Below, piece by piece: positions 8,517-58,943 of a stretch of 64,000 nt of DNA. The translations under genes were made by a program, and so were the position numbers. The stretch covers positions 4,960,001 to 5,024,000 of the forward strand of contig OZ020258.1 in the NCBI GenBank assembly GCA_963971285.1, read 5' to 3'. Each line of letters starts with the position of its first letter. Within the stretch, counting starts at the first letter, position 1. The DNA comes from Astropecten irregularis (Eukaryota > Echinodermata > Asteroidea > Paxillosida > Astropectinidae). Under the pieces are notes generated by a model, which searched no databases, was not told the origin of the DNA, and saw only the letters and a list, made by a program, of their open reading frames with translations.

Positions 8517-8699
8517 TTTTCTGATCTATTTGCACGGCGTGTGCACATATTTAGGTCTTACAGACCGCCTACGGTGACGCGATGGACGGTAAGGCATATA
8601 ATATCTCGATATTGAGGCGAGGGGATATTGCCCATGAAGCAATTCCCCCACCATTAATATAACCGAGTAACATTTTCTTGTCCATTATTTCATGTGACT

Positions 8700-9476
8700 A
8701 GGGACCAATTTCGTTGAGCTGCTTAAGCACCCAAAATTTGCTTAAAGGTAATATCATACTTTGGTTTTTGTCAAAGAAATACGGATTCATGGGCACAAAT
8801 ATCACAGAAGATGCAGTAACAGTCATCTGTGAAATTTCAGTCCCATACGGCGCCCACATTATGAGAAAACAGTGAAAAACGCTCAGTATTTCTTAAATCT
8901 GTTCACAATTTTTGTTTTATCTTAATAAGATCAGAATTGTTTTGGTGTTTGATTTTACTCTTTTCTAGATAAATACAGCTTTTCAGGCAGAAACATTTTA
9001 ATGGTATGTTTCTACCGTCGTCATCTTTATACCCTGTAAGTTATAAGGTAAATCTGTGAAGATTTCTGTTTCTTTTTGGTTGGTAATCCTATTTGATCAA
9101 GGAAGACCTTGCTTAAGGTATTATCAAATTGGTAGCATACTGAAACAGAAATCTTCACAGATTTACCTATAACTTACAGGGTATAATGATAGTGATTTTA
9201 GGAACACACCGTTAACATGTTTCTGCCTGGAATGCTGTGTTTATCAAGAAAAGAGTAAAAACAATTACCAAAAACAATTTTGATCTTTAAAAGAAAAGAA
9301 ATATCACACTCTTTTCTCAAAAGGTGGGCACCGTATGGGACTGGAAATTTCACAGACTGATGACTGCATCTTCCTTGATATTTTTGCCGATAAATCTGTA
9401 TGTCTTTGACAAAAAAAGTATGATATTGCCTTTAAGCTAATTCTTTTGCTTAAAAAGCTGCTATATGAAACTGGCC
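8700..9476. mobile_element. Nested MITEs: two family A copies inside a GGGCCAATTTC element
   Basis: The outer arms are GGGACCAATTTCGTTGAGCTG (8700) and AAGCTGCTATATGAAACTGGCCC (ending about 9476). Inside are family A copies at about 8742-9110 and 9112-9435, both bounded by TTAA at their outer ends. Confidence 0.7.
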
Positions 9477-9983
9477 CATATCACACAGTGCAGCATTAGT
9501 GTGGAGTTCGTCAGTGACATTATACACATACCCATGGCGATTGACGAAAGATTGTAAAGCCCCTGCAGCTAGAAATGAATATAATGATCACAAATTGATG
9601 TCGTCGATGATAATACACGACACGCGTTTATAAACCTGAAGTGCATTTCTATCCCTCGCTCGACGAGGGACTTCTAAACCTATGGAGTGCCACTCCAAGT
9701 GCTTGTGTTGATCTTCAGAGGGATTATTATTGATGCAAATGGCTCGCCATTTCTTTCAATTTTCTTGAGTACAACATATTCAAGCCCTCTTGTGAAATAG
9801 GGAACACAGGAAGACTGTAATCTCGAGTGACATTTTATTATGTTTCTCGTGTCTTTACAAGACTAAAACATATTGCAAACAAAATCCAATATCATTTTTT
9901 TTCTAAAAAAAACCCCATATGGCGAGCGGAGGTACCGTTTTAAGATGTTTGTGGCAAATTTTTGATAAAACCTTATTTTTGGT

Positions 9984-17831: not shown

Positions 17832-18089
17832 GATGCCTCGCCTGATGAGCACGCACAAGAGTGATTGAAATTTGGAGCGCTCGGCTGGGTGATATTCAGG
17901 GCTTGAAAATGCGACCGAAGAATCAATAATTATCATTTTTAAGAGCTATCTTTAGTTCACTGGGAGATGAAAATGATTCATTAATACTTTCTTCATTTCT
18001 CTTCAGCCGCTGATTATTAAATGGTCGTATGTCTCTTTTAATGACATACTAAATTCAATCATTAATGTTATTTGCAGCTACAAGCACGG

Positions 18090-18815
18090 ATTATCCCTTT
18101 ATAACCAAACACTTTCTTTCAGAACCACGGATTATCCTATCATAACCAAACACTTTCTTTCAGGACCACGGATTATCCCCTCATAACCAAACACTTTCTG
18201 TCACGACCATGGATTATCCCTTCATAACCAAACACTTTCTTTCACTGTCACGGTTTATCCCTTAATATCCAAACACTTTCTTTCACGACCATGGATTATC
18301 CCTTCATAACCAAACACTTTCTTTCACGACCATGGATTATCCCTTTATAAGTCAACACTTTCTATCACGACCATGGATTATCCCTTCATAACCAAACACT
18401 TTCTTTCACGACCATGGATTATCCCTTTATAAGTCAACACTTTCTTTCACGACCATGGATTATCCCATCATAACCAAACACTTTCTTTTACGATCATGGA
18501 TTATCCCTTCATAACCAAACACTTTCTTTCACTGTCACGGTTTATCCCTTAATATCCAAACACTTTCTTTCACGTCCATGGATTATCCCTTCATAACCAA
18601 ACACTTTCTTTCACGACCATGGATTATCCCTTCATAACCAAACACTTTCTTTCACGACCATGGATTATCCCATCATAACCAAACACTTTCTTTCACGACC
18701 ATGGATTATCCCTTCATAACCAAACACTTTCTTTCACGACCATGGATTATCCCATCATAACCAAACACTTTCTTTCACGACCACGGATAATCCCATCATA
18801 ACCAATCCCCCATCA
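18090..18815. repeat. 41-bp tandem repeat, about 17 units
   Basis: Unit contains ACCATGGATTATCCC, TTCATAACCAAACAC and TTTCTTTCACG (15+15+11 bases). Variants TTTATAAGTCAACAC and CACGGTTTATCCCTTAATATCC recur as a higher-order pattern. Non-coding. Confidence 0.9.
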
Positions 18816-30556: not shown

Positions 30557-30926
30557 TTAAAGGTAGTATCATACTTTGCCATACCGAAACAGAAATCTTC
30601 TCAGATTTACCTATAACACATAGGGTAAAAAAATGGTGATGGTAGAAACATACTGTTGAATTGAAGTTTAATTTGTGCGCCTGAAATGCTGTATTTATCG
30701 AGAAGAGTAAAACCAATGACCAAAAACAATTTTGATCTTTTAAAGATAAAAAATAACCGTGAAAAGTGGACGGTTTTGACCATTTTCTAAAAAAAGTGGG
30801 CACTAGCTGTGTGTATGTATGAGACTGAACATTTCACAGATGACTGATCGATCTTCCTTTATATTTTTGCCCAAGAATGTGCATTTCTGTGACAAAAACC
30901 AAAGTTAAGTATGATATTACTTTTAA
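30557..30926. mobile_element. TTAA MITE family A
   Basis: TTAAAGGTAGTATCATACTT left; TATGATATTACTTTTAA right. Confidence 0.8.
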
Positions 30927-31373: not shown

Positions 31374-34300
31374 ATGTCGTCTGAAAATCGGAGCGTAAAA
31401 ACTGAGGACGACGAAGACAAATTCCACATGATTTTGTTGAGATTACTGAAGGAGGAAGACAACAAATACTGTGCAGACTGCGACGCGAAAGGTATGAAGA
31501 ATTGATTGAATCAATGATGTCTGAAACATGTTCTATAGCCCATGAAATTAGCCTTACTTGATTCAATCAATGTCATTGTGTACCAACTGCACTGAACCCT
31601 AGTCCGAGTAACTTTTAACATTTGGACATGATCTGGTGATAGGAGGGTCCAAGTACCTTGTTTGCATTAGAGTGGCAAGAGCTCCATTTTGCCTCTACCC
31701 TGAGTCAAAATCCTGTGATTTCACCCGCTCCAAAACGATCCTAAAATGGGCAAGAATTCCACTGACGGCCATGACGGAAAAAAAGTTATATCCTCTAAAA
31801 GTTAACTTACTGGATACAAGTTAGGACCAACTTCAATCTCAGGAGTGGAAAGCTGGGTAGCACATCTGGAAAGTGAGTTTTACGGGGTATTTTGGACCCA
31901 CACTTCAGAGCAGTAGCGCACAACGGGGGCAGCCATTTTCTATCTGTGAACTTATGTGTGGTGCGCATGACAGAGGGCAAAGGGCACTGGAGCTGTTGAA
32001 TATTGATGTTCAGGAGGGACCATTGTTTGGCGGGGGGCGGGGGCGGGTGGGGGTGTTTAGTGTGAGGTAATAACGGTAGGAAAATTCAGGGAGGGTTTAG
32101 GTGTGGGGATTTCAAAATAGCATTATTCTAGGGACATTTTTGGAAGGTTTGAATTGAATTGCAGTACGCAGCTTAGATTTAACCATTGCATATTGGGACT
32201 CCCCCGCCAATTTTACTTGACCTTAACTTCAAATGGAACATATTAACCTTCTTCTGACAGCAAGCGCTCGTGTGGCGTGCTCAGATAATCCATTGCATTT
32301 GTAATAATATTGTTGTTTCTTCCACAGCCCGGGTTCGAATCTCAGTGAGATCAAGGTAAAAAAAATTGGAAAATAAGAGTGAGAATGTAGGGGAGGAAGG
32401 GATATAGGAGAGGTAGGAGAGAAGAAAGAAGTGTAAAGAGGGCGTTTTTTTTTTTTTTTTTTTTAATTTGCCCCCTTTTTTTTAAACCTCTCCCCCTAGT
32501 CACTGAGCCCCCTCTCACACCTAAAAACCCTCAAAATAGATTCCCCCCCTTCTGAACTTGTCAAATATCCAAAAATTAGGTCAATTTGGCCATGGCCGTC
32601 AGTGGAATTTTTTCCCTAAAATGTCTCATGCAGCCAGCTATGCCTATGGACCAAGGGAGAATTGGAGTTTCCAATAATGACAAGGTTTACTCATATTTTT
32701 GGAAGAAAAGAAGAAATGATAATGTTCTGTGGTCGTAACATAAACAAGTTTGTTTGTTTGTTTATAAAATGAACCTCACCGCAATTATTTCTTCCACTGC
32801 AGATCCTCTGTGGTCGTCATGGAATCTGGGCATATTCCTGTGTAGTCGCTGTGCTAGTTTTCATCACACTCTGGGCGTGAACATATCTAGAATCAAGTCA
32901 GTGGATTTAGACACATGGACAGCAGAACAGATTATGGTCAGTGCCTTCCCATAAACACACCATATAAAGTGAAAAGCCTAGTTCATACTTCATGGAAATT
33001 TGCCATGCATAACAATAAAAGTCTTTTCACATGACGCTAAAAAACTCTCAACCATTGAGAAATTCTCTCATGGGTCTGGACCTCAAGGATTCACCAGGGA
33101 CATCGGTCACTCTCATAAGCATTGGTATCCTTTCACACGATTACACTTATGTAAGATTTCGCAACCGTAAGAGAATTTCTAAATGGTTGAGAGTTTTTTT
33201 TAGCGTTGTGTGAAACATTGTGAAAAGGCCTTAAGAAAACATTCTTGTGTCACCAACATTTGCTATGCTTTTCCAATTTATGTGAAGTATAAGGTAGAAC
33301 AGGGCTTAATAAGGGCCTTTTCCCAAACCTCAGCTCAGGCTCTGGCTTCGTCTCTGTCATCCATCATGCCCATACTGCCATATGTTGAAAATATAGGTTA
33401 TGGCTTTTAATTAATTGAAGCTGAAACTCTGTTTCTATTTCAATACAGCGAATAAGTTTCCAAACCGCAGCCGAAAGCCTCTACCATATTTGTCTACTGG
33501 TGTTAATTTAGAATGGATGACATGGACTTGGAGGTGCCGAGGTTTGGAAAAATGGAAAGGCCCTAAATCTCTCTGATTGAAGGAGTTGAATTGGATTAAA
33601 TGTTATATGTATGAGACACATACCTGTACTGAAGTTTGATGTAGCAACACATAAACTTGACACTGGAAAATGTCCAACAAAACTTAAATTTAGAGGCAGA
33701 AATATCTTTTCATTGGCCTCTATTTTCATTGTCATATCTTTTCATTCCACCATCTTCAATGTATTGAAGTCCTGTATTGTGTATGCATTGACATGTATCT
33801 TGACTTGTTGTTGATTCTGTATTTGACAGAGCGTTGAGAATGGAGGAAATACACTCGGACGTAGAATCTACGAGAAGCATCTTCCTGAAGATTTCAAGAG
33901 ACCAACAACTGACTCGTATCCTTTAATTAATGGAAATGTTATTAATGGAAATGCCTGGCCTGGTTATTGCCTTGGTGCCCTTGGTAATGGCCTTGGTGGC
34001 CCTGGTCATTGCCTTGGTGCCCCTGGTCATTGCCTTGGTGCCTCTGGTCATTGTCCTGGTGCCTGTGGTCATTCCCTCATCAGAGTAGCAAATACTAAAC
34101 ATAATGAGCAGCCACTGAAAATAATTTGACTCCATTGGCATCAGTGGCCACAATTCTTTAATTGGTCAGTGAGCTATTCAGTAATCGCACATATCAGTGG
34201 CCACATTTTCTCATTGGCCTGTGAGCTATTCAGTTATCACACAGTTCAGTAGCCATTTTCTCACAGGCCTGAAAGCTATTCAGTTATAGCACAGATGAGT

Positions 34301-37121
34301 GGCCACAATTCTTTCATTGGCCAATGATCTTAACTGTCTTAATTCAGACATCTTGATGAGATCACCTGGCAGTTGTTTTTTCATTCTTTCCTTGACCTGA
34401 TTTCGCAGGAGTTCCCTTGAACGATTCATAAGATCCAAATACGTAGACAAGAAGTACATAGACGGTGATTTTCTACCACCAGCTTCCGAAGTAAGTCCAG
34501 ATAAAAAATAAGTTTCAAAACAATCAGTATGTTGTATTTTTTTCCTATTGTCAACACATGAAAATTCACTGTGATTTCCAATAAGTCATTTGCAAGTTAA
34601 AACTGGATAATATCTGGTACACAGACTTCTTTCATTGCACATAAACACCCCAGTTTGAATTTTATAGACTAGAGACTCTGTCGCTTTGGCACATGATTCA
34701 GGGCAAGCTTTTGCAGAGCGATACCCATCTCTGGAATGGACTGGTTCCTACGGTGTCATTCTTATCCATTATGAACTGGGCATTGGTGCAAGTCTGGAGA
34801 ATTCAAGTTTTGATGTTAACATACTGTACAGTGAAAGAAGTCAGTGTACTAGATCTTGTTCAAAGGCTAATTAGAAACTAATCATTGGCCAGGACAACTC
34901 CAAATTATGAGATTTTCAAGGAGACATTGGCTCGGTTCTTTTATTCATTTATTGCTCGTTGTCTTTCTGAGGACTATTCTGGTCCTTCCAAGGACCTTGG
35001 CTGTTCTTCTGAGGACCCAGACATTTTTGTGATTCCAAAAAGTGCGCCACCAAGAGTTTGGCGACTCACAATTCATTAAATATGTCAACTAAATGCACAT
35101 CTGGAAACGGTTGACAGATTCCGCGCATTGTGATTGGCAACGAATTGCAAACTCTTGGTGGCGCACTATTTGGAATCGTCCATATTGTGGCAGATTTAGA
35201 AGCTTCAGCTCACTGATGAGGTTACAATCACATGTCTAACATTGTTGACGAGTGATGATCATTTTGTTTTAAAGAATTACAAAATGACCAGGGTTCTTGA
35301 GAATTTGTTAATTTGTGCACATCACCGATGCCCTAATTCCTGAAATCAGTGTGGCAGTCAAGAGGCTTGTTTTGAGTATTAATTCCATGAAATAATTTCT
35401 TGGCTTGATTGCTTCATTGACAGGAAGTGCCCGAGCTCTCTGAAGTCCAGCAGTCATCACCACCTATCATGGCTGCTGAGCGACGTAGACGCCGTCCCAG
35501 CAACTTCACTGACACAACTTCAAGTGGTTCGGAGGACATTTCATCGTCGGATTTTGATTCCGATGATGAATTGAGCGATGAGTTTTTTGTAGATGCTCCA
35601 GTGCCGACCGAAGGATCAGCAGCGCCACGCCCAGATGCTCCGGCTCCAGTCGTTTGGACTAAGGAAAACTGTTTTCCTGAGCCGTTTGAGTTCACGGGCA
35701 GAGACGGTGTTCAAGTGTACCTGGATTATTCCAGCACAAAGCTCGACGTGTTCCATGAGTTTTTCGCCGAGGACCTCTTCCAGCACATTGCCGACGAGAC
35801 GAACAGATATGCCGCCAAAAACCTGCAAGACCATCAAGACAAACACACCAGGGTGTGGTTCGATACAACGGCGGAGGAACTGAAAGCCATGCTGGGGCTT
35901 CACATTCTGATGGGCATCACCCCTAAGCCAGACATCCGATCCTTCTGGAGCAGGGAACCGATGATCGAGAGTCCGTTTTTTGGGAAGACCATGCCCAGGG
36001 ACAGGTTTCTCCAGCTGAGAGCCAATCTGCACTTCAACTGCAATGACAGTGACGACGGAACGGACAGGCTGTTCAAGCTCCGACCGTTCCTGGATTCTGT
36101 GACCCAGAAATTCAAGACTGTGTACATTCCGGCGCAAGACATAGCCACCGATGAGTCGCTCTGGAAATTTCACGGTCGACTGAAGTTCAAGGATTCAAAT
36201 GCGGCCAAGAAATCACGATTCAAAGTCAAGGTGTACAAGACATGCCAAAGCAGTGGCCCTGCAGCAGGGTACACTTGGAACTTTCAGATCTACACCCCCG
36301 AGACCCGAGGCAATCTTCCTGCGAGTACGAGTACCTTCCTCAAGCTGAACGAAGACCTGCTGGACCAGGGTTACAACGTCTTTGTGAACAACTGGTTCAG
36401 TCACCCAGATCTCTTCCTCCGTCTTAGAGACAGGCGAACCAATGTCTGTGGAACCGTCCGGATGAACCGCCATCATATGCCGCAGGATTTGAGAACGGTG
36501 AAACTCGACAAAGGAGAAATGGTGCACCGTTCCAGCGACAGCGGGCTGTTGGCCATTGTGTGGAGAAACAAGAAAGACATCAGAATGCTGTCAAACATGC
36601 ACTCAGCATCGATGGAAAAGTCTAAAAAGAGAGACAAAGATGGCGCCCTCATTGAGAAGCCTTCCTGTGTGGTGGACTACATCAAGGGAAAAGGAGGAGT
36701 AGAACTCGCCGACCAGCTGGCCTCCAGCCATCGCAGCGTCAGGAAGTCGATCAAATGGTACAAGAAGATCTTCTTCTACCTCCTGGACCTCTGTTTGGTC
36801 AATTCTTACATCGTCTACAAGCTGCAGGGACACGATCTGGAGTATTTTGAATTCAAAATCTCTCTGGTCAGGGAGATACTGGAGTCTGTCACGCTTCCCG
36901 TGTATAGCACAAGAGTGAGACCCCATGCACTGCCCAGTCCCAACAGATTCATGGGGAGACATTTCCCCATGTGTATCCCGCCGACTGCCAACACGCTCAA
37001 GCCATCCAGGAGATGCGTGGTCTGCAAAACAATTAAACGGCGTAAAGAGACAAGGTATCAGTGCGATATATGTGATACGCCGTTGTGTGTGACCCCTTGC
37101 TTCAAGATGTACCACACCTAA
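31374..37121 (+). CDS. SMAP-type ArfGAP fused in frame to a piggyBac-derived transposase
   Basis: Exons 31374-31491, 32803-32936, 33830-33915, 34409-34490 and 35424-37121 join in phase into 705 codons plus a stop. Residues 1-140 are a SMAP-like ArfGAP domain. Zinc ligands are C33, C36, C53 and C56 (C-x2-C-x16-C-x2-C), but the arginine finger is His: CASFHHTLG, where the neighbouring SMAP gene has CAGIHRNLG. Exon sizes 118/134/86/82 equal those of that gene. Residues 141-155 ([15 protein letters not shown]) look like former untranslated transposon or intron sequence. From M156 follow a basic patch, an acidic Ser-rich stretch, the DDE core and a C-terminal zinc finger (C671, C674, C687, C690, C695, C699, H704). 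The catalytic triad reads D383 (ATDESLWKF), N462 (VFVNNWF), E567 (GGVELADQ). Likely nuclear DNA binding without transposase or GAP chemistry; inference. Alternative: the transposase ORF alone is expressed from M156. Confidence 0.8.
31750..32622. mobile_element. Inverted-repeat element, 'CCACTGACGGCCAT' family
   Basis: AATTCCACTGACGGCCATG at 31752 and ATGGCCGTCAGTGGAATT ending about 32613. A shorter relative lies in intron 1 of the SMAP gene at 40446-40722. The interior holds a T-homopolymer (32447-32464) and C-rich runs. Confidence 0.7.
33012..33231. mobile_element. MITE with CTCTCAACCATT arms
   Basis: GACGCTAAAAAACTCTCAACC left; GGTTGAGAGTTTTTTTTAGC right, with GAGAAATTCTCTCA / AGAGAATTTCT inside. 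Lies in intron 2 of the fusion gene. Confidence 0.75.
33312..33566. mobile_element. MITE, 'GGGCCCTTTTCC' family
   Basis: AAGGGCCTTTTCCCAAACCTC left; GAGGTGCCGAGGTTTGG and AAAGGCCCT right. Third copy in the window. Confidence 0.75.
33952..34078. repeat. 21-bp minisatellite, GCCTTGGTGCCCCTGGTCATT
   Basis: About six units, somewhat degenerate, inside the U12 intron of the fusion gene. The same unit forms a larger array in SMAP intron 5 (43225-43662). Confidence 0.85.
34133..34330. repeat. About 61-bp tandem repeat, three to four units
   Basis: CAGTGGCCACAATTCTTT, CATTGGCC and GAGCTATTCAGTTAT recur in order. Inside the same U12 intron. Confidence 0.8.
34578..34875. mobile_element. MITE, 'ATCTGGTACACAGACTTCTTTC' family
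   Basis: ATCTGGTACACAGACTTC and CATGATTCAGGGCAAGC on the left; AAGAAGTCAGTGTACTAGAT on the right, reversed. The better copy is at 57848-58214. Lies in intron 4 of the fusion gene. Confidence 0.75.
35031..35177. mobile_element. 147-bp MITE with 30-bp ends
   Basis: GATTCCAAAAAGTGCGCCAC left; GTGGCGCACTATTTGGAATC right. The arms run 30 bp with one mismatch. It lies 247 bases before the transposase exon. Confidence 0.85.
35424..37121 (+). CDS. piggyBac-derived transposase exon (PGBD4-like), final exon of the fusion
   Basis: Acceptor TTCATTGACAG|GAAG leads into one open stretch of 565 codons. Its own first ATG is at 35469 ([13 protein letters not shown]), so it could once have been a self-standing transposase. 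Visible parts: acidic Ser-rich N terminus, DDE core with [11 protein letters not shown] and [19 protein letters not shown], and a Cys/His zinc finger at the end (RRCVVC ... [11 protein letters not shown]). Two of the three catalytic Asp are replaced (36387 AAC Asn; 36702 GAA Glu). It is GC-richer than its surroundings. No piggyBac terminal repeats are recognised next to it, although TTAA occurs nearby by chance. The uninterrupted frame despite a dead triad suggests selection on the protein. Confidence 0.93.
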   Translation, partial: EVPELSEVQQSSPPIMAAERRRRRPSNFTDTTSSGSEDISSSDFDSDDELSDEFFVDAPVPTEGSAAPRPDAPAPVVWTKENCFPEPFEFTGRDGVQVYLDYSSTKLDVFHEFFAEDLFQHIADETNRYAAKNLQDHQDKHTRVWFDTTAEELKAMLGLHILMGITPKPDIRSFWSREPMIESPFFGKTMPRDRFLQLRANLHFNCNDSDDGTDRLFKLRPFLDSVTQKFKTVYIPAQDIATDESLWKFHGRLKFKDSNAAKKSRFKVKVYKTCQSSGPAAGYTWNFQIYTPETRGNLPASTSTFLKLNEDLLDQGYNVFVNNWFSHPDLFLRLRDRRTNVCGTVRMNRHHMPQDLRTVKLDKGEMVHRSSDSGLLAIVWRNKKDIRMLSNMHSASMEKSKKRDKDGALIEKPSCVVDYIKGKGGVELADQLASSHRSVRKSIKWYKKIFFYLLDLCLVNSYIVYKLQGHDLEYFEFKISLVREILESVTLPVYSTRVRPHALPSPNRFMGRHFPMCIPPTANTLKPSRRCVVCKTIKRRKETRYQCDICDTPLCVTPCFKMYHT

Positions 37122-37279
37122 AAACAACTGCAAACTACGTCCCAGTATGCAGTTTCCTCCATTAAACTGTCTTGGGTAACGGCTTTTGCTTTACATGTTT
37201 ATTAAATATTGACTGTGACAGGAGCTGTTGCTTAGGTTTTGCTGTATTGAAAGAGAAAAACGTTGGATGTCAAACAGTA

Positions 37280-37510
37280 AGAAGCCATGAAACCATGATG
37301 ATGACTCCTTTTGCTGTGCGTATCGGTGAAATGATCCCTGGGGCATGGCGGTGTGTGCGTGGTTTCATATGGCTTCTGACTGCCAAACGAACAATAATAA
37401 TTGACTATTGGGTTCATCACCAACGTAGGGCTGGATGGCTCGGTTGGTAGAGGGCCTGTACAGTATTCAGGAGGTCGCCGGCACGAATCCCGCTCCAGTC
37501 AATTTTTCTT
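37280..37510 (+). mobile_element. SINE with fold-back head
   Basis: AGAAGCCATGAAACCA (37281) and TGGTTTCATATGGCTTCTG (37362) are inverted. They are followed by the tRNA-like part: GGCTGGATGGCTCGGTTGG, B-box-like GGCACGAATCCC, TCCAGTCAATTTTTCTTTG. The same head with GGTTTGGCAGTCAGAAGCC is seen reversed at 44940 and 47665. Confidence 0.65.
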
Positions 37511-37639
37511 TGTTCACTTTTCAACAGTATTTTCAAATATTCACGTCAGGAGCTTTGATCTCACCCCAAGATCAAAACTGTTTCCAGCCATTGTTTGTTT
37601 TCTAATTTCTGGATTTAAGCATTTCAGCTAGAAATATTT

Positions 37640-38005
37640 TAAAGGTAAAAGGTATTTTTAAAGGTATTTTTAAAGGTTTTAAAACCAAAACAGAAATGTT
37701 CACAGATTTACGTAAAAATTACAGGGTATGAAGATGGTGGTCATGGTGGTGGTAGAAACATACCGTTAAAATGTTTCCACCTGAAATGGTGTATTTATCC
37801 AGATATTAGTAAAACAATGACCCGAAATCTTTTTGATATTTTAAAAGATCAAAAATAAAAGAGAAAAGACTTAAGAAATACTGTGGCCGTTTTTCGCTGT
37901 TTTCTAAAAAAGTGCGCACTGTATGGGGCTGAAATTCTCACACAGATGACTGTAACTGTATCTTTCTTGATATTTTTGCCCATGAATCTGTACTTCTTTG
38001 ACAAA
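37640..38005. mobile_element. TTAA MITE family A, ends degraded
   Basis: AAACCAAAACAGAAATGTTC through GCCCATGAATCTGTACTTC. The left side is a disordered set of AAAGGTATTTTT repeats. Confidence 0.65.
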
Positions 38006-38112
38006 CTTCTCCGCTAAATGGAAAATTGCTACACAAAGTAGCGATTGATTTCCCGTTTAGCAATGGATTTGGGCTTTAGTGATGATCGCAAAGCGTTAGT
38101 GAAATCGGCCCC

Positions 38113-39485
38113 AGTTTCCCCTTCAAATGTTTCTTTTGAGAAAGAATTCACTTAATTAAATGCATATACATGTAACAGTATTAAACAAACAATGAAATAC
38201 TTTTTTGTAAATTTTTGCATATGTCATTATTACTGTAGAAAAACAGAAAATAGTATTTGTAGATTAAAAGCAGTTTATTATCTTGTTTCTGAAATTAAAA
38301 ATAGCCTGGTTTGTATATAATTCTTTGTCAGAAGATGGGTTTAAGTTTATATCCTAATTGTTTATATGTAAATATTTTTTGCTATTTAAAATGTGTATTA
38401 TTTCGTATGGTATAATCATTTATACCTCTTTTTGTTTAGAAAAGTATAAACACTTATATGAAAACCAACTTAAACAGCATTGAAATTAAATTTGGTAAAA
38501 ACAATACCTCCCTGCCTCAAATAATTATGAAAAAATATAATACTGGTAAATTGACGAAAGTGTTCCTCAACTCTTAGAGAAAAATGTCTCAACGAGTAGC
38601 TTCTGAAATAATCTGAAGGAAAGAATTGATTTCGTGTTTAAATTGTTTATCCTTTGATAAAGGCAACTCAATATATGTTATAGCTCCAAACTCCAAGCAT
38701 TTTAAATAAAGTAAATATTGTTAATGTAATGTTCATCTTTTTTATGTAAACTTTCTTTTGAAAATGCACATAGTTGTTAATAAATTATGAAGATTAATAG
38801 ATCTTGTTGAAATGAGTGTTTGTTAAATTGTTGTGTTTGGTAGCACTTAATTATTAATTGATCCAAATTAAATGATTTAAATTTTTGAAAACTTTGAGTC
38901 GAATATAATTAATTGCTTTAGTTCATAGCACTGCAAAAGGACCCATATGGTAACCTTGCCAACCATTGCGATTATTATTTCATATTTTCTTAGGATTTTC
39001 TGAAAATTGTTTTAATTCCAAGTAAAGCGCACCCCACCCTTCCACCAAGCTCCACCCCCTACTATCAGCCTTGTTAATCCATTAATGACGTACGTTAATG
39101 TAATTTACAGAATGACGTATCCGGTGCAAAGGTCAAACGCGGAATAATATATCTCATTTTGGTTTTTGCCCTTTTCCTTGCAATTCTCTGCTCAAATATC
39201 TTCGATTTACCAAATAACTTCACAAATTGTCGACTCATTAAGGTTGGACCACTTCTCAATTGATGTTCGGTGTTATTTTTTATGATAATCTTTGATAAAA
39301 AGCAGTGCGAGACTTTTTACTCAGATTGGTTTTACGTCCACGAGTTCAATTTTGGACAATTACTTCCGGGTCAAATCCACATACGGCAAGTGGGTGTCAC
39401 TTCCGACTAAATAATAATCGTGTGTGTGCTTGGTGATTGAACGTCTGTTTTTATCGGAATTTTTGGGCAATTTTTTCACATCGAC
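38113..39485. other. AT-rich 3' flank of fusion gene and upstream region of SMAP
   Basis: 38113-38940 is very AT-rich with poly(A) signal candidates AATAAA at 38705-38710 and 38779-38784, the latter followed by a GT-rich stretch. 38941-39485 should hold the SMAP promoter and 5'UTR; no TATA box or clear initiator is recognised. Confidence 0.45.
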
Positions 39486-54203
<14,718 letters not shown>

Positions 54204-57847: not shown

Positions 57848-58214
57848 TGTAATAAGTGATTTGTGAGTTAAATCTGAGTAGTATCTGGTACACAGGCTTC
57901 TTTCATTGCATATAAACACCCCAATTTGAATTTCCCAGACTAAAGACTCTGTTGCTATATCACATGATTGAAGGCAAGCGTTTGCATAGCGATACCCATC
58001 TCTGGAATGTACTGGTTCATTTGTGCCATTCTTATCCATTATGAACAGTGCCATGGTGCAATTCATCTGTTGTATAACTATAAAGCAAAAGCTTGCCCTG
58101 AATCATGTGATATAGCAACATAGTCTTTCGTCTGGGAAATTCAAACTTTATGTACAATGAAAGAATCCTGTGTACCAGATACTTTTCAGATTTACTCACA
58201 AATGGCTTATTGGG
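57848..58214. mobile_element. 367-bp fold-back MITE, 'ATCTGGTACACAGGCTTC' family
   Basis: AATAAGTGATTTGTGAGTTAA left; CTCACAAATGGCTTATT right. Arms run for more than 100 bases, including CTGGTACACAGG, GACTCTGTTGCTATATCACA and GCAAGC words. Confidence 0.85.
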
Positions 58215-58743: not shown

Positions 58744-58943
58744 NNNNNNNNNNNNNNNNNNNNNNNNNNNNNNNNNNNNNNNNNNNNNNNNNNNNNNNNN
58801 NNNNNNNNNNNNNNNNNNNNNNNNNNNNNNNNNNNNNNNNNNNNNNNNNNNNNNNNNNNNNNNNNNNNNNNNNNNNNNNNNNNNNNNNNNNNNNNNNNNN
58901 NNNNNNNNNNNNNNNNNNNNNNNNNNNNNNNNNNNNNNNNNNN
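58744..58943. other. Assembly gap (200 N)
   Basis: Exactly 200 N. The words TACAAATTG and TTATTTTGTATGCCTGGT occur on both sides (58704-58743 and 58944-58981), so the gap sits in a tandem or falsely duplicated segment. Translated frames across it are meaningless. Confidence 1.

Follow-up and report, generated by a model that had tools for sequence, protein, structure and literature searches.

PGBD1 is a SCAN-containing host-piggyBac fusion. The closest described parallel to the locus that we analyse here is CSB-PGBD3, in which the 3' splice site is reported to lie 7 nt 5' of the transposase methionine and the polyadenylation site about 130 nt past the stop codon (PMC2268245). According to the same source, the catalytic positions of PGBD3 are occupied by D270, N352 and D467, the related pseudogenes keep D at the second of these positions, and a Western band suggests that PGBD3 is also made alone (PMC2268245). 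SETMAR is described as a further host gene derived from a transposase, with a changed triad and another host partner (PMC2268245). PGBD5 is likewise described as a host gene derived from a transposase whose catalytic residues have been lost (PMC3902484), but it belongs to another lineage and is split by introns, whereas the piggyBac frame that we describe is unsplit.

In the window (the whole stretch of 64,000 nucleotides of Astropecten irregularis DNA that was analysed), four ArfGAP exons of SMAP type are followed in the same phase by a long piggyBac frame. As in CSB-PGBD3, this frame lies 3' of a host donor and on the same strand, and a candidate in-frame 3' splice site stands just 5' of the transposase methionine; past the stop codon, CSB-PGBD3 has a polyadenylation signal and the window a motif that may be one. 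The sequence-only reading had invoked CSB-PGBD3 as a precedent, and the analogy proves closer than it claimed, because in both systems the second catalytic D has become N in the intact copy and is D in broken relatives. The two systems also differ. In CSB-PGBD3 the element is reported to occupy an intron of its host gene, whose alternative product is the fusion, whereas in the window a truncated tandem duplicate supplies the host part and the parent gene stands apart, undamaged. The partner in the window is an ArfGAP domain that has lost its presumed arginine finger, the third catalytic residue is E, the splice site would lie further upstream and no inverted repeats were found in the window. 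Finally, the transcript and protein of CSB-PGBD3 have been demonstrated, whereas the fusion described here is predicted from sequence.

A starfish protein offers another comparison. P0001, an annotated protein of Patiria miniata that derives from an automatic gene model, carries the UBA and SEP domains of p47 (NSFL1C) before its piggyBac part. It belongs to the same piggyBac clade as the window copy (100/99 support) and, like it, has host N-terminal domains ahead of piggyBac without the host C-terminal domain, which in P0001 we take to be UBX. It differs in its host gene and in having lost the first catalytic D (to G), as opposed to the second and third in the window. P0001 alone shows clear host domains in the Pfam lists of the 78 protein hits. 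A p47 join shared by the two species was considered and rejected: p47 of this genome (C30:9386428-9389324) has no piggyBac match within 5 Mb among the matches listed, and the join in P0001 and that in the window therefore look independent.

The sequence-only reading knew of no ArfGAP-piggyBac case, and our searches bear it out. No such protein occurred among the 78, 7 and 29 hits obtained in word-limited searches of annotated proteins, and open-licence papers yielded neither a fusion of ArfGAP or SMAP with a transposase nor a domestication of a starfish piggyBac. A survey of transposon domain fusions in 10 million eukaryotic proteins likewise does not name ArfGap in its main text (PMC12062965). 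In Acanthaster planci, SMAP and the nearest piggyBac relative are listed on contigs that differ in length. The predicted fusion thus takes its place among the known host-transposase fusions, with an ArfGAP partner that is new.

The SMAP duplicate and the predicted junction

Table 1. Positions of the ArfGAP and piggyBac features and of the neighbouring SMAP gene in the window.
Feature	Position	Strand	Details
SMAP duplicate exon 1	31374..31491	+	118 nt; start codon, ArfGAP N-terminus, zinc cysteines 1-2
SMAP duplicate exon 2	32803..32936	+	134 nt; ArfGAP core with third and fourth zinc cysteines, R61 to H
SMAP duplicate exon 3	33830..33915	+	86 nt; 91% identity to intact exon 3, dS 0.18
SMAP duplicate exon 4	34409..34490	+	82 nt; donor GAA/GTAAGT, phase 0
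Putative intron 4, between ArfGAP and piggyBac	34491..35423	+	acceptor ATTGACAG/GAAGTG
Predicted piggyBac-derived terminal exon	35424..37121	+	565 codons and stop; D243, N322, E427; internal Met 35469
ATTAAA, possible polyadenylation signal	37161..37166	+	40 nt past the piggyBac stop; motif only
Intact SMAP exons 1-4	39486-39603, 41151-41284, 41833-41918, 42539-42620	+	arginine finger normal
Intact SMAP later exons	43034-43144, 46312-46477, 46935-47174	+	gene continues from about 47907; boundaries after exon 6 by eye

The four ArfGAP exons sum to 420 nt, or 140 codons, and all their introns are GT-AG. They had been read as having the sizes and phases of SMAP exons 1-4 and as ending at a GTAAGT donor in phase 0, and sizes and phases are indeed identical in the intact SMAP gene at 39486-42620. 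The joined translation likewise reproduces the 565-codon piggyBac frame that had been proposed to open at 35424 in the same phase, and with it a predicted protein of 705 residues that stays in phase 0 across 34490/35424. While the in-frame structure of that SMAP-piggyBac reading stands, its host part does not: a SMAP gene with exons of the same sizes and phases, which that reading had overlooked, lies intact 2.4 kb downstream, so that the ArfGAP exons at 31374-34490 represent a tandem duplicate of SMAP that has been truncated. These exons match the ArfGap family of Pfam with 127.1 bits (cutoff 28.7), and the piggyBac exon matches DDE_Tnp_1_7 with 271.4 bits (cutoff 22.4) and zf-Tnp_2 with 29.8 bits (cutoff 24). 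Among solved proteins, the ArfGAP half is closest to SMAP1 (2crr, E 2.4e-47) and a SMAP1-like protein (2iqj, E 7.3e-44), with which it shares the zinc cysteines but from which it differs in R61H and in having no SMAP tail; the piggyBac half is closest to the piggyBat transposase (9c0f, E 1.9e-75).

When pieces of SMAP exons 5-8 were compared with 34491-39485, the best match reached only E 0.45, and no SMAP C-terminal tail was found in this interval. An ArfGAP query against the whole genome (475,729,200 bases in 168 contigs) gave 11 matches, 7 of which fall by their coordinates in the two neighbouring SMAP copies; the other four, on contigs C11, C23, C16 and C14, are single-exon matches of 34-57% identity and look like other ArfGAP genes. 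The nearest SMAP proteins are those of starfish, the intact copy agreeing with Asterias amurensis at 123 of 140 residues and with Acanthaster planci at 121 of 140. Alignment between the introns of the two copies is limited to the borders of the exons, a few short matches and repeats common to both. Exon 3 with its edges (33824-33924 against 41827-41927) is 92% identical, whereas exons 1, 2 and 4 are 73-78% identical, and exon 3 has probably undergone gene conversion between the copies. Tree support for dating the duplication before or after the divergence of the species is 56/0. We also note a minisatellite of about 21 bp (TGGTCATTGCCTTGGTGCCC) at 33959-34077, in intron 3 of the duplicate, and at 43223-43659, in the intron that follows exon 5 of intact SMAP; all 18 of its matches in the window (at most 2 mismatches) are in these two introns, so that the same repeat occupies different introns.

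We infer that 34490 is spliced to 35424, giving the 705-residue protein. Scored with a matrix of approximate human-type frequencies, the acceptor at 35424 is the best in 34520-35600 (8.23; the second best, at 34993, scores 7.77) and stands at the 98.4th percentile of the 3563 AGs on the plus strand of the window; 57 of the window's AG sites, about 0.9 per kb, score at least as high, and such a score alone is not rare. The runner-up at 34993 gives just 28 residues in phase 0, and none of the AGs in 34520-35423, that of the 35424 acceptor excepted, gives more than 75 codons in this phase. The acceptor sits 45 nt 5' of the transposase methionine at 35469, which is flanked by A at -3 and G at +4 and from which the transposase could be translated alone. 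At four other open full-length piggyBac loci (L003, L004, L005 and L007), which belong to other subfamilies and of which L004 and L005 returned identical values, the 140 nt upstream contain no acceptor with a score above 2.6 and the 300 nt past the stop contain no A[AT]TAAA, whereas the window copy has such a motif at 40 nt; further open loci, among them those on C1 at 28.4 Mb and on C16 at 6.3 Mb, stood outside this comparison. If exon 4 of the duplicate is read past its donor, a stop follows after 6 more codons. SMAP exon 5, at 43034, being in phase 0, in principle offers exon 4 of the duplicate another possible acceptor, with an open join.

Constraint and catalytic losses in the two halves

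The duplicate keeps all four zinc cysteines (33, 36, 53 and 56), contains no stop and no indel, and retains its GT-AG sites. Its residue 61, which by family alignment we take to be the ArfGAP arginine finger, is H in place of R (the codon is CAC, where intact SMAP has CGC). Such an arginine is described as essential in ArfGAP activity (PMC4644846), and the ArfGAP half would on this basis have lost its GAP activity. Between the duplicate and intact SMAP, dS is 0.58 and dN 0.17 overall; by exon, dN/dS ranges from 0.13 in exon 2 to 0.51, the highest value, in exon 4. With two starfish proteins as reference, 29 of the 39 differences between the copies fall on the side of the duplicate and 3 on that of the intact gene, 7 being ambiguous. 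We compared these numbers with a neutral simulation (4000 runs, in which half of dS gave a rate of 0.29 substitutions per site and the intact copy took the place of the ancestor), which produced a mean of 65 amino-acid changes, at least 53 in 97.5% of runs and 36 or fewer in 0 of 4000, and which left the exons of the duplicate stop-free in 2.2% of runs. The 29 changes of the duplicate, even with the 7 ambiguous ones added, stand against the 53 or more of 97.5% of neutral runs. Because conservation exceeds that of the neutral simulation, the duplicate appears to have been selected to keep its frame, with constraint relaxed and the GAP residue lost, and purifying selection on the ArfGAP exons is supported by these statistics.

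In the piggyBac half, D268, D346 and D447 of the Trichoplusia ni (T. ni) transposase align to D243, N322 and E427, so that the DDD triad is incomplete. For the T. ni enzyme, excision frequencies of 3.0e-5 for D346N and 4.4e-5 for D447E are reported against 1.4e-2 in one assay, and of 3.6e-4 and 2.4e-4, respectively, against 3.2e-3 in another (PMC2533014). The transposase of the window is, to judge from these residues, probably cleavage-dead. It may nevertheless retain DNA binding, by analogy with PGBD3, which is reported still to bind the upstream terminal inverted repeat of its own element (PMC3902484), and with alanine mutants of the T. ni triad, which are reported still to bind the terminal repeats (PMC2533014). 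The C-terminal zinc finger of the window copy retains its cysteines and histidine; not every such finger binds DNA, as that of the ciliate PiggyMac is described as not doing so (PMC8086355).

The 476-Mb genome holds at least 72 piggyBac matches, and the window copy is the sole intact one of its subfamily among the matches listed. Its closest relatives lie on contigs C20, C10, C1, C30 (two in tandem) and C9, in pieces of 42-79% identity with one N-terminal piece at 32%. All six of these copies, which were the ones compared (short fragments on C24 and on C22 at 16.21 Mb were left out), are broken, five being split across frames and the C10 copy being a 134-codon fragment with a stop. The second catalytic position is D in all four broken copies that cover it and N in the window copy. 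The first position is D in 4 of 4 broken copies and the third is D in 4 of 6 and Q in 2 of 6; these losses of the third residue count against a reading of the window copy as domesticated. Six more distant loci (L003-L008, about 30% identity) have D-D-D in five cases, L005 having G at the third position, and L006 and L008 contain one stop each within the match. Around the window frame, the best TTAA-flanked inverted repeats have 10 of 16 matches, against a mean maximum of 10.35 in shuffled sequence; the closest broken relative, L009, has no inverted repeats either (best 6 of 16), and their absence says little.

Compared with L009 over 519 codons, the window copy has a pS of 0.738 and a pN of 0.209 (bootstrap pN/pS 0.24-0.33), and the true ratio is probably lower because synonymous sites are near saturation. 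Pairs of broken copies with measurable dS gave dN/dS values of 0.36-0.49 (seven pairs), and the pN/pS interval of the pair L009-L010 is wide (0.19-0.82). In a tree of 22 proteins the end branch of the window copy measures 0.44 changes per site, against 0.037 for P0003, and its frame is still stop-free; a simulated frame of piggyBac length, given 0.1 neutral substitutions per site, stayed stop-free in 0.2% of runs. Of 128 well-conserved columns, the window copy differs from the consensus at 15, the aligned start methionine among them, a share above that of 15 of the 21 other proteins (the corresponding counts are 13 of 123 for P0001, 21 of 129 for P0002 and 0 of 108 for P0003). One or two catalytic residues are lost in P0001, P0002 and P0010 as well. 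Statistically, these data support purifying selection on the piggyBac frame across its whole history, and part of this constraint may date from a mobile past. The best tree groups the window copy with P0003, P0007 and P0010 at a support of 46/1. We also considered whether the window copy is orthologous to P0001 and P0002, an idea that found no support (AU p 0.061 for the trio).

A proposed captured terminal exon and its alternatives

The locus has an in-frame gene structure with losses at catalytic positions in both halves, and we favour, at a probability of roughly 0.6, the view that it is a domesticated host-transposase fusion gene made by exon trapping. SMAP exons 1-4 would have been duplicated in tandem without the SMAP tail, and a piggyBac element lying beyond the duplicate's fourth exon would have been recruited, in frame, as its terminal exon by way of a 3' splice site immediately 5' of the element's own start codon. 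The nearby possible polyadenylation signal would end the fusion transcript, an exon-trap route like that of CSB-PGBD3, while the neighbouring intact SMAP would retain the old function. The fusion is presumably expressed. Its product would combine a zinc-bound ArfGAP fold, unable to stimulate GTP hydrolysis, with a piggyBac transposase that could hardly cut DNA but would keep its domain and its cysteine-rich zinc finger. The likeliest role of such a protein would be to bind DNA or chromatin, for instance where relics of its own family of transposons lie, and the ArfGAP module would act as an arm that binds proteins. That the fusion acts as a DNA-bound adaptor or regulator is a position to which we commit ourselves, and not a result.

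The same features can be read in other ways. It seems unlikely to us that the locus consists of two adjacent genes, one a truncated, ArfGAP-only SMAP duplicate and the other a domesticated, stand-alone piggyBac that starts at ATG 35469. Such an arrangement would make use of the good context of this ATG, and read-through of exon 4, which soon meets a stop, would supply an ArfGAP-only product of 146 residues; moreover, the pS of 0.74 between the piggyBac half and its closest relative in the genome, a value near saturation, is far greater than the dS of 0.58 between the SMAP copies, and therefore the two parts need not share a history. Against two separate genes, the best acceptor of the interval lies just 5' of this ATG and in matching phase, the four other open loci examined have no such acceptor, and we saw no terminal exon that the duplicate could use instead (34520-35423, phase 0, more than 75 codons). 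We regard as more improbable still the idea that the duplicate exons are an alternative 5' end of SMAP, spliced to exon 5 at 43034 with piggyBac nested in a long intron. Although exon 5 is in phase 0, the join is open and the duplicate exons are under purifying selection, such a transcript would have to bypass the acceptor of the piggyBac exon as well as those of exons 2, 3 and 4 of intact SMAP. In addition, it is exon 4 of the duplicate that has the highest dN/dS (0.51), and no such isoform is present among the starfish SMAP proteins found, the hits including no annotated protein of this species.

There is, lastly, very little chance in our estimation that both halves are neutral relics, in which a partial duplicate in decay and a dead transposon merely happen to be open and in phase. 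Both have lost catalytic residues, no terminal inverted repeats were found, and dead copies with long frames do occur in the clade (P0001, P0002 and P0010), all of which would be expected of relics. Yet the conservation observed in the ArfGAP exons was reached in none of the 4000 simulated runs, a frame as long as that of piggyBac was stop-free in so few runs (0.2% at 0.1 substitutions per site), the related copies in the same genome are broken without exception (6 of 6) and the pN/pS of the piggyBac half is far below 1.

The domesticated fusion that we favour might be one instance of a broader pattern, in which one starfish piggyBac clade has repeatedly been captured as a host terminal exon and the fusion in the window is a GAP-dead and cleavage-dead adaptor on chromatin, or a repressor of its own relics, providing the first link between Arf trafficking and a transposase-derived DNA binder. 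We offer this wider proposal tentatively and consider it rather doubtful. If the fusion is transcribed, it would be a starfish host-piggyBac fusion that repeats the loss of the second aspartate in CSB-PGBD3, which hints at a common path of taming; a truncated tandem duplicate could then serve as host donor while the parent gene is left unharmed, and the ArfGAP domain would join those found in transposase-derived genes.

Other repeats in the window

The putative intron 4 contains a 30-bp inverted repeat (35031-35060 and 35148-35177) whose arms are 97% complementary and 87 nt apart; the segment 35031-35177 may represent a non-autonomous element of small size. The window also contains many copies of a repeat of about 370 bp, for example at 30557-30926 and 37654-38005, and near the latter copy a segment at 37429-37500 resembles by eye the head of a tRNA-derived SINE, in which ARAGORN calls no tRNA. 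A run of undetermined bases occupies 58744-58943. Two segments, 8693-9485 and 57851-58211, match their own reverse complement at about 73-74%, and a tandem repeat array extends over 18085-18805, where shifted self-matches have 88-92% identity.
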